Shown piece after piece: positions 1-36,644 of a stretch of DNA of 36,644 bases. This stretch comes from a virus: the IMG/VR virus record IMGVR_UViG_3300021182_000107, positions 1-36,644 of that record. One strand, written 5' to 3'. The stretch's first letter is position 1, and each line of letters starts with the position of its first letter. Both the position numbers and the translations under genes were made by a program. The notes under the pieces are model-generated. The model was not told the DNA's origin. It made no database searches and was given only the letters and a program-made list of their open reading frames with translations.

Positions 1-2
1 AA

Positions 3-227
3 CTGACGCTGTTACGGGTCGTGATCGAAGGCGATGTGGTCGCGCCCTATTTTATCGAAGACGAGCGCCACGCAGTTGCCGATTTCCACGACCGCCGAGA
101 CATCACCGCCAAGCTCATTGGTATTCCGGTTGCACCAAAGTGCGGTTCGATAATTGACGCGATGTCTGGAAAGGTGCTCGCCACCTTCGACGCCGCTCAG
201 CTCAGTCCCTGGTATTCTCCCCGCTAG
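3..227 (+). CDS. C-terminal part of an unknown protein, cut by the window edge
   Basis: The frame is open from the left edge to a TAG at 225-227, so the gene may begin outside the window; a GTG at 21 would be an internal or alternative start giving 68 residues. Codons are mostly GC-ending and the product is soluble and of mixed composition, with a segment reading KLIGIPVAPKCGSIIDAMSG. I do not recognise a family. It runs on the same strand as the small gene at 489 and opposite to the repressor. It could be a phage gene lying left of the repressor or host DNA next to the phage; the sequence does not decide. The antisense frame over the same stretch is judged a shadow. Confidence 0.45.
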   Translation: MTLLRVVIEGDVVAPYFIEDERHAVADFHDRRDITAKLIGIPVAPKCGSIIDAMSGKVLATFDAAQLSPWYSPR

Positions 228-321
228 ACTGCGCGGCGGATCAACGCGGCCACAATTATCCCAAGCCTTGAGTCGCGCCACACGTTGACCGCGAACCAAT
301 CCTGCGTCTCAATTGCTCCCG

Positions 322-445
322 GAGCTGGTAACTCCGCAATGAGAGTCGCTGCAAGTGCAGCGGAACCCGCTATGCCGGGAGCGCGCGAATACAAAACCCG
401 CGAGGGGAATAAGCGCGCCTGACTCTCATCAGGTTACCAGCTCCC
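322..445. ncRNA. Candidate structured RNA with long closing helix
   Basis: Bases 322-333 (GGAGCTGGTAAC) pair perfectly with 434-445, and bases 340-348 (ATGAGAGTC) pair perfectly with 422-430. The two helices (12 and 9 bp) are coaxial and separated by a 6/3 internal loop. Inside them lie three smaller hairpins: 349-353 with 358-362 (loop AAGT), 367-370 with 377-380, and 382-387 with 414-419. The nested arrangement is what a folded RNA of about 125 nt looks like. No T-run follows on either strand, so it is not an intrinsic terminator. The strand is undecided. It lies in the only gene-free stretch (228-488) left of the repressor; 228-321 holds nothing else I can name. It could instead be a DNA-level inverted repeat, for example transposase or regulator sites. 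Confidence 0.45.
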
Positions 446-488: not shown

Positions 489-695
489 ATGCGTAAAAAA
501 GAGATTACAAGGCGGTTGGTCGAAGCGCCGCGTGTTCAAATCGAAGAAGCACTACGCCACGCCAGAGGAATAGCCGAAATGGCACAAACCGCGGTGATCA
601 GCCCAAACGCCAGCCCGCATTCTATTTCCGATGCGCTCGCGACGGCCGTCGGTGAGATTGATCGCGCCACGGCACTAATTATGGGGCACACCTAA
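489..695 (+). CDS. Small unknown helical protein (68 aa)
   Basis: ATG at 489 follows a GGGGAA Shine-Dalgarno-like stretch at 481-486. The product is short, charged and predicted helical, with segments such as RVQIEEALRHARGIAEM and ISDALATAVGEIDRATALI. No domain is recognised. Its stop overlaps the end of the convergent repressor gene by a few bases, the tight packing seen elsewhere in this phage. A longer overlapping frame at 355-573 runs through the structured element and has worse codon use, so it was not chosen. Function is unknown; position next to the repressor suggests an accessory or lysogeny-expressed gene, which is inference only. Confidence 0.5.
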   Translation: MRKKEITRRLVEAPRVQIEEALRHARGIAEMAQTAVISPNASPHSISDALATAVGEIDRATALIMGHT

Positions 696-1526: not shown

Positions 1527-1826
1527 ATGCCGGTTGCAGCTACGCGTAGAGTCGGAAAGTCGGCCAGATTGAAGGGCTGGCACCCAGAAGATGTCAAGGC
1601 GGCCGTCCGAAAAAGCGGGCAGACCCTCACGTCCCTTTCTCTCTCGCACGGTTTTTCGGACGCCTACCTGCGCAACGCGCTCCGCCGCCCGCTCTACGAA
1701 GGCGAGCAGATCATCGCGAGGTTCCTCGGCGTCGATCCATATTTGATTTGGCCCGATCGCTATCACGAAGACGGTACGTCCAAGATCATGCGCGGTGACG
1801 CAACGCTGATGCGGAGGGCCGCATGA
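1527..1826 (+). CDS. ner: Ner-like DNA-binding protein
   Basis: The 99-residue product matches the Ner/Nlp family along its length: GWHPEDVKAAVRKSGQTL, then LSLSHGFSDAYLRNAL as the helix-turn-helix, then EQIIARFLGVDPYLIWPDRY, the hallmark I-x-P-x-R-Y end of the domain. In Mu, Ner is the first early gene; it represses both the early operon and the repressor gene, so that lytic growth can proceed. It is divergent from the repressor and overlaps the next gene by ATGA, so it heads the early operon. ATG at 1527 has only a weak ribosome-binding site (GGGAC). Length is close to Mu Ner plus a short basic N-terminal extension. Confidence 0.92.
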   Translation: MPVAATRRVGKSARLKGWHPEDVKAAVRKSGQTLTSLSLSHGFSDAYLRNALRRPLYEGEQIIARFLGVDPYLIWPDRYHEDGTSKIMRGDATLMRRAA

Positions 1827-36191: not shown

Positions 36192-36244
36192 TTATCACCT
36201 CAACCGAACGGCTTCGATTACGGGGCTGTCATAAAGGATCAACC

Positions 36245-36644
36245 ATGAAAGTCACATATCGCCAGATCGCCACCATTGAGGCGATCACCGCTCTCGCCCA
36301 TCTGCGGAACACGCCGCCGACAATGCTGATGAAGGACAAGGTTGCTATCGCCCGCCTGAGCGTGATGCTGCGGTCCGAGCAAGAAGTCTGCAAAGAGCTG
36401 CACAACACGCTGATCACCGACTACATCGACAAGGCCTTCAAACTGATGCAGTCGAGGGCGGCGAATGACGAAGAGCGCGGCAAACTGCTCAAGCCCATTA
36501 GCGTTCCGCCGCAGTACATGCCGGAATTTTTGTCGGACTACGACAAACTGCTTTCGACCGAAGTGGAGATCGTGGTCGATCCGCTGCCGATAGCCGCGTT
36601 GGGCGACGGCGAGTTTCTGTCGGCCGAGGACATCTATCATCTCG
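36245..36644 (+). CDS. Helical phage protein, cut by the right window edge
   Basis: ATG 36245 follows AAAGGA (36233-36238) and the frame remains open to the edge (133 codons seen). The sequence begins MKVTYRQIATIEAITALAHL, then KDKVAIARLSVMLRSEQEV, with the pattern of small DUF1617-like phage proteins, and later VPPQYMPEFLSDYDKLL. Function is unknown. The 53-base gap before it (36192-36244) holds no clear terminator. The phage right end must lie beyond the window. Confidence 0.72.
   Translation, partial: MKVTYRQIATIEAITALAHLRNTPPTMLMKDKVAIARLSVMLRSEQEVCKELHNTLITDYIDKAFKLMQSRAANDEERGKLLKPISVPPQYMPEFLSDYDKLLSTEVEIVVDPLPIAALGDGEFLSAEDIYHL

Follow-up and report, generated by a model that had tools for sequence, protein, structure and literature searches.

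We analysed a 36,644-nucleotide stretch of viral DNA (IMG/VR record IMGVR_UViG_3300021182_000107; hereafter the window) and identified a structured element within it as a member of sRNA-Xcc1, a poorly understood small-RNA family, carried by the phage together with a sequence that pairs with it. The locus is probably an antisense-RNA immunity cassette with the design of the C4 locus of phage P1, in which an sRNA-Xcc1-family RNA replaces C4, and by analogy we infer C4-type antisense control of the lysogeny switch. We assert the RNA (RNA B) and its upstream pairing site (target A) in the window copy; the target gene of this copy is not secure. A preliminary description of the DNA, made from the letters alone, had suggested several roles for the element, among which a role in lysogeny fits best.

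An sRNA-Xcc1-family RNA and its upstream target

The element contains two perfect helices with 21 bp in total, both recovered as 100% complementary inverted repeats. The first, of 12 bp, joins 321-332 (GGAGCTGGTAAC) with 433-444, and the second, of 9 bp, joins 339-347 (ATGAGAGTC) with 421-429, all on the + strand. The same 21 pairs had been reported earlier with coordinates off by one base, and the asymmetric 6/3 internal loop described between them was right (333-338 versus 430-432). The three inner hairpins were found at 348-361, 397-406, and 417-434; that at 397-406 is GNRA-capped and sits on a conserved internal loop. Region 310-460 gave a folding z of -4.95 on both strands, with none of 200 shuffles equally good, and the isolated duplex formed by 315-350 and 418-448 had a free energy of -37.5 kcal/mol versus -14.2 ± 3.3 kcal/mol for shuffles, none of 1000 being as good. 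The equal fold strength on the two strands follows from the inverted-repeat nature of the element; we assigned the sense strand (+) from the conserved sRNA-Xcc1 family.

The idea that the element is a folded RNA was borne out by this fold and by the Rfam covariance model for sRNA-Xcc1 (RF02221), which matched 374-456 on the + strand at 57.4 bits, against a gathering score of 53 (E 7e-10 for the local stretch). The match covered model positions 1-87, which is the full model, above the curated threshold, and was the sole Rfam match in the whole window; the view that the element resembles no phage RNA that can be named was thus wrong. In RNA B, stem P1 is formed by 376-382/440-446 plus 374/448, P2 by 383-386/413-416 and 397-399/404-406 with a GCGA tetraloop, and P3 by 417-422/429-434, in agreement with the Rfam model and the fold, and RNA B as a whole also with the covariation seen in the family. 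P1 is followed by the RCC-type motif GCCA (449-452). An RCC follows P1 in 69 of 95 family members against a background of 10%, which resembles RNase P substrates, and this sequence pattern is suggestive of RNase P processing of RNA B.

The two long helices are not the closing stem of this RNA; they join an upstream target A (320-347, +) with the recognition face of RNA B (421-444). That face consists of tract b' in the P3 loop (421-429), with a perfect 9-bp match to target A, and tract a' in J3/1 and the 3' strand of P1 (433-444), with a perfect 12-bp match. Within target A, tract a1 (320-336) is a hairpin, CGGAG-CTGGTAA-CTCCG, that presents a J3/1-complementary sequence in its loop, and tract b1 (339-347) is complementary to the P3 loop. 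Since the A:B helices and P1 both use the 3' strand 440-444, they are mutually exclusive. The cis A:B fold (-65.4 kcal/mol) was better by 11 kcal/mol than the fold with P1 formed (-54.3 kcal/mol), and by this folding model the more stable cis pairing could hinder processing of the window RNA.

A promoter-like element lies ahead of target A at 285-313 (+), with TTGACC at 285-290, a 17-nt spacer, and a weak -10, CTCAAT, at 308-313. It was missed by a general promoter scan, which demands a better -10. Among 47 listed family occurrences, 31 had TTGA[CT] 35-37 nt before the A hairpin, and TTGACC of the window stands at 35. Between target A and RNA B, GCGGAACCCGC (360-370, +) is a probable attenuator remnant that carries the GCGG..CCGC motif found at this place in relatives (45/95 members versus 3 shuffled). 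A terminator-like hairpin with a T-run occupies the same interval in 69/95 members versus 1 shuffled, and in 41 of these 69 its 5' arm can also pair just upstream. The terminator scan found no terminator after GCGGAACCCGC and reported none in the window, in agreement with the earlier remark that the element is not a terminator; we rejected a Rho-independent terminator on this basis. The gap from A to P1 is 25 nt, the shortest of the set (median 73). Target A is also close to the RNA in four alphaproteobacterial relatives (L221, L225, L233, and L234), so the compactness may mark a subtype, not decay.

Other identities were considered for the element. A tRNA was rejected by a tRNA check, and an integron attC site, considered because sRNA-Xcc1 is integron-borne in Xanthomonas, was dropped because comparison by eye showed no fit of 321-332/433-444 to the consensus for attC core sites. 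A self-cleaving ribozyme, an idea raised by the 5' end at P1, was dropped because the P1/RCC layout fits RNase P; to our knowledge, the topology of RNA B is not HDV-like. We also replaced a pure pseudoknot reading of the downstream pairing once target A turned out to be another copy of the same target.

The wider setting is that of a Mu-like phage. A CI/LexA-type repressor gene (HTH plus peptidase S24) lies at 692-1411 on the - strand (PF00717, E 1.9e-21; PHROG 4, transcriptional repressor, E 2.7e-42); it is convergent with the RNA transcript and lies outside the RNA. Divergent from it, at 1527-1826 (+), is a small winged-HTH gene (Pfam HTH_35, E 5.6e-26), a Ner-like regulator ahead of Mu-type transposition genes, and Pfam identified a Mu-type transposase in the window. 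The reading frames at the two ends of the record (window 1-227 and 36239-36644) are open to its edges, so it may be a fragment, or its prophage borders may be imprecise. A search for close phage relatives yielded one distant relative by the repressor and none by the small open reading frame that follows RNA B or by the transposase. RNA patterns specific to the window returned known loci or nothing, and a looser pattern returned one Pseudomonas copy.

Pairing and covariation across the family

Scanning viral contigs with a pattern for the conserved core yielded at least 120 stretches. With Infernal, sRNA-Xcc1 matches were found in 58 of 399 sampled Pseudomonadota genomes (40 above cut-off). The class to which the best transposase relative belongs was also scanned, and 46 of 385 genomes had matches there (7 above cut-off); we infer that the class of genome G188 is Alphaproteobacteria. 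After removal of near-duplicates (about 85% similarity) and false units, 95 non-redundant members were analysed. Two small genomes (1.4-1.6 Mb) had unexpectedly many matches, 11 copies in G482 and 10 in G659, over many contigs.

The fold of the RNA covaries. A 45-sequence alignment contained 139 cells with two-sided changes versus 56 ± 7 when shuffled, and its covariation score was 0.367 versus at most 0.13 for slid structures. The internal loop of P2, under a GNRA tetraloop, looks invariant across the family, in part by selection, since the scan that built the collection required that core.

The A:B pairing is conserved and co-varies across the 95 relatives. When 200 nt upstream were aligned against the recognition face, cognate pairs scored 22.2 and non-cognate pairs 13.4 ± 0.25, in permutations that preserve composition and not phylogeny; some kinship is left among the members even after near-duplicates were removed. 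By the same comparison, 66% of cognate pairs scored above the 95% non-cognate level. Pairing of at least 8 bp occurred in 29/95 members (non-cognate mean 3.3, maximum 6). An a1-type hairpin was present in 51/63 members versus 19/63 shuffled. Target A of the window fits this family-wide pattern, so the long helices that it forms with RNA B belong to a pairing that is conserved and co-varies in the family. Compensatory changes in homologues, a check that the preliminary description had called for, were found across these relatives, and the cassette occurs with different arm sequences in non-Mu phages, plasmids, and chromosomes.

Some loci carry tandem sRNA-Xcc1 units: L029 (9288 and 9822, - strand), L123 (2482 and 3018), and L058 (7043 and 7286). 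The units are about 240-540 nt apart and differ in their a'/b' tracts, and in L029 each stands before its own antirepressor-like ORF. They are possibly stacked immunity specificities.

Downstream genes and likeness to C4

In most family members a further target, C, which co-varies with the RNA, lies where the next gene starts; that gene often encodes an antirepressor. Pairing of at least 6 bp between J3/1 and the segment just before the next start codon was found in 64% of cognate and 16% of non-cognate combinations, and pairing of at least 5 bp between the P3 loop and the start region in 73% of cognate versus 19 ± 3%. The start codon follows P1 by a median of 45 nt. Among 66 non-redundant downstream proteins, Pfam identified Bro-N (10), Rha (9), KilA-N (8), P22 antirepressor (P22_AR; 4), and AntA (2), with single cases of ORF6N, KilAC, SymE, and DUF3077, and the PHROG families matched by many of these proteins are mostly named anti-repressor or transcriptional regulator. 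In many members, among them L136, L038, L125, L023, and L103, the RNA is followed by a short ORF (about 60-140 aa) that lacks an antirepressor domain; one of these ORFs carries DUF3077.

In the window, the place of the regulated gene is taken by a small putative ORF at 489-695 (+), with 68 aa from ATG 489 or 59 aa from the in-frame TTG 516. Its start distance fits the family, and it runs towards the repressor gene. It had no Pfam match, and PHROG 730 was matched only at E 0.065. Its GC3 of 0.55 is unremarkable, versus 0.75 in the transposase. The stretch had been described as gene-free, which is doubtful because this ORF comes directly after the element, its own coding status being uncertain. 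The ORF may belong to the mixed group of short non-antirepressor ORFs. By eye, a putative weak target C (478-504, +) can be made out from TTGG..AACC at 478-488 and GAGA at 501-504; it was not significant as a duplex (p = 0.17) or by alignment (p = 0.97).

Across the family, the parts are arranged as in the phage P1 C4 locus, annotated (NC_005856) in the order promoter, a1 b1, C4 RNA, a2 b2, icd, ant; there the antisense RNA keeps an antirepressor that promotes lysis switched off. Rfam C4 (RF01695), the antisense RNA of phages P1 and P7, has the same topology as RNA B, namely a closing stem and two hairpins, the P3 loop carrying b' and J3/1 carrying a', and the stem ends in an RCC in both (ACC in C4 of phage P1). 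P2 differs, being a UUCG-type hairpin in C4 and a GNRA hairpin on a conserved internal loop in sRNA-Xcc1. The window RNA has the C4 topology and a 21-bp upstream target of the a1/b1 type; unlike the phage P1 locus, the window has no terminator and no demonstrable a2/b2. Applied to phage P1, our alignment test detected the upstream site at p = 0.002 and the 8-nt b2 match at p = 0.056.

C4 acts by base-pairing around the ribosome-binding site of antirepressor mRNA (review, PMC12197685), and the C4 precursor serves as a substrate of RNase P (Hartmann 1995, as cited in PMC11143913). Rfam keeps C4, isrK, and sRNA-Xcc1 as separate families. The C4 model gave no match in the window at 200-600 even at E up to 10, the isrK model (RF01394) gave none in the window, and the models for C4, c4-a1b1 (RF03163), and isrK gave none in 11 sRNA-Xcc1 loci. 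Given the shared layout and topology, the RNA would work like C4, yet by the model test it lies outside the C4 family. Direct homology with C4 and isrK is not supported by model matches; the similar topology makes a shared origin possible. The isrK model did match the a1/b1 plus terminator segment of the phage P1 C4 locus (NC_005856, 48230-48311; our locus L200) at 35 bits, below the cut-off. This segment corresponds to the position of target A and the terminator in the sRNA-Xcc1 family, and the match raises the possibility that isrK represents an attenuated leader from C4-type cassettes.

The CI RNA of satellite phage P4 is an RNase P-processed antisense RNA with targets upstream and downstream in the same leader (seqA, seqB, seqC), and control in P4 is by transcription termination ahead of the replication genes. 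As described, this design resembles that of the sRNA-Xcc1 family in having targets on both sides of the RNA.

We propose that a + strand transcript starts near 320 and carries target A first, with a1 in a hairpin loop and then b1, before continuing through structured RNA B (374-452) into the small ORF. RNase P would cut out RNA B at the 5' end of P1, and the mature RNA would expose its P3 loop and J3/1 and pair in trans with A of newly made transcripts. For most relatives, a further partner of the mature RNA could be C, where an antirepressor-type gene has its ribosome-binding site. Pairing would favour premature termination when it occurs at A and block translation when it occurs at C; both would keep a lytic-promoting product off in the lysogen and so give immunity to related phages.

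Alternatives and significance

Several features of the window speak against this explanation: site C is not significant, there is no terminator, the -10 is weak, no known domain was found in the ORF after RNA B, and the stable cis A:B fold could hinder processing. The failure of the C4 and isrK models to match the sRNA-Xcc1 loci tested also counts against it. Since C is not significant and the cis A:B fold is the more stable, the window copy may belong to a compact subtype, act as a self-pairing switch, or be a remnant. The last of these would be a decaying copy of a true C4-type cassette that has neither terminator nor gene-proximal target and regulates nothing. The missing terminator and C, together with the domainless ORF and its GC3, are what one would see in such a copy; however, the copy retains P1, P2, P3, the core loop, the RCCA, the promoter distance, and the full 21 bp of A:B, a pairing that one would expect decay to damage, and layouts with A near the RNA recur in L221, L225, L233, and L234. 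We consider a remnant rather unlikely. We give only a small chance to a compact alphaproteobacterial subtype in which A together with B makes up an RNA switch that sustains itself, where a new transcript would fold A onto its own B and mature only if existing mature RNA occupied A first, and lysogeny would be inherited through the RNA itself.

The highly conserved P2 internal loop, the mutually exclusive folds, and the overlap of C with start sites would also suit a riboswitch-like leader acting in cis, in which A, B, and C pair alternatively and a ligand or protein bound by the P2 loop chooses among them. The invariance of that loop is partly due to the search pattern, though, two target copies flanking an RNA match the C4 design, and relatives exist as discrete RNAs of 88 nt in Xanthomonas (RACE and Northern blot; PMC2996969) and 89 nt in E. 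coli O157, where ribosome coverage was 0.02 (PMC5331693), all of which makes such a leader improbable. The preliminary description had also raised a transposase-binding end, and the arms could be read as Mu-type transposase binding sites or a prophage recombination-end structure in view of the Mu-type transposase encoded in the window and the position of the element near the left side of the record. This reading is unsupported and very improbable, since the same layout occurs with different arms in non-Mu phages, plasmids, and chromosomes, integron copies are reported (PMC12444791), the changes in the arms are compensatory, and outside the two arms the window shows no clustering of the motif CTGGTAACC.

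sRNA-Xcc1 was found in Xanthomonas campestris by cDNA cloning (PMC2996969), all seven copies in Xylella are expressed (PMC12189769), and copies in Xanthomonas integrons lie upstream of symE (PMC12444791). In these papers the RNA has been read as a virulence regulator, a vesicle cargo, and a partner of symE. The Rfam model and the published accounts consulted describe the RNA of about 88 nt alone; they mention neither targets A and C nor the promoter-attenuator layout nor a link to antirepressors. In the open-access literature, sRNA-Xcc1 occurred with "prophage" only as a table entry in one paper, "sRNA-Xcc1" and "antirepressor" occurred together in none of the matches listed, and we found no link from sRNA-Xcc1 to the C4 locus.

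The C4-type cassette that we favour gives a concrete function to an sRNA family known mainly from Xanthomonas and earlier read as a virulence or vesicle-cargo RNA. If this is true, sRNA-Xcc1 joins C4 as a second, widespread immunity RNA of the same type; immunity groups would be set by its variable P3 loop and J3/1, and its targets would be readable from sequence. A reason for the association of sRNA-Xcc1 with symE in the Xanthomonas integron cassette would then also suggest itself.
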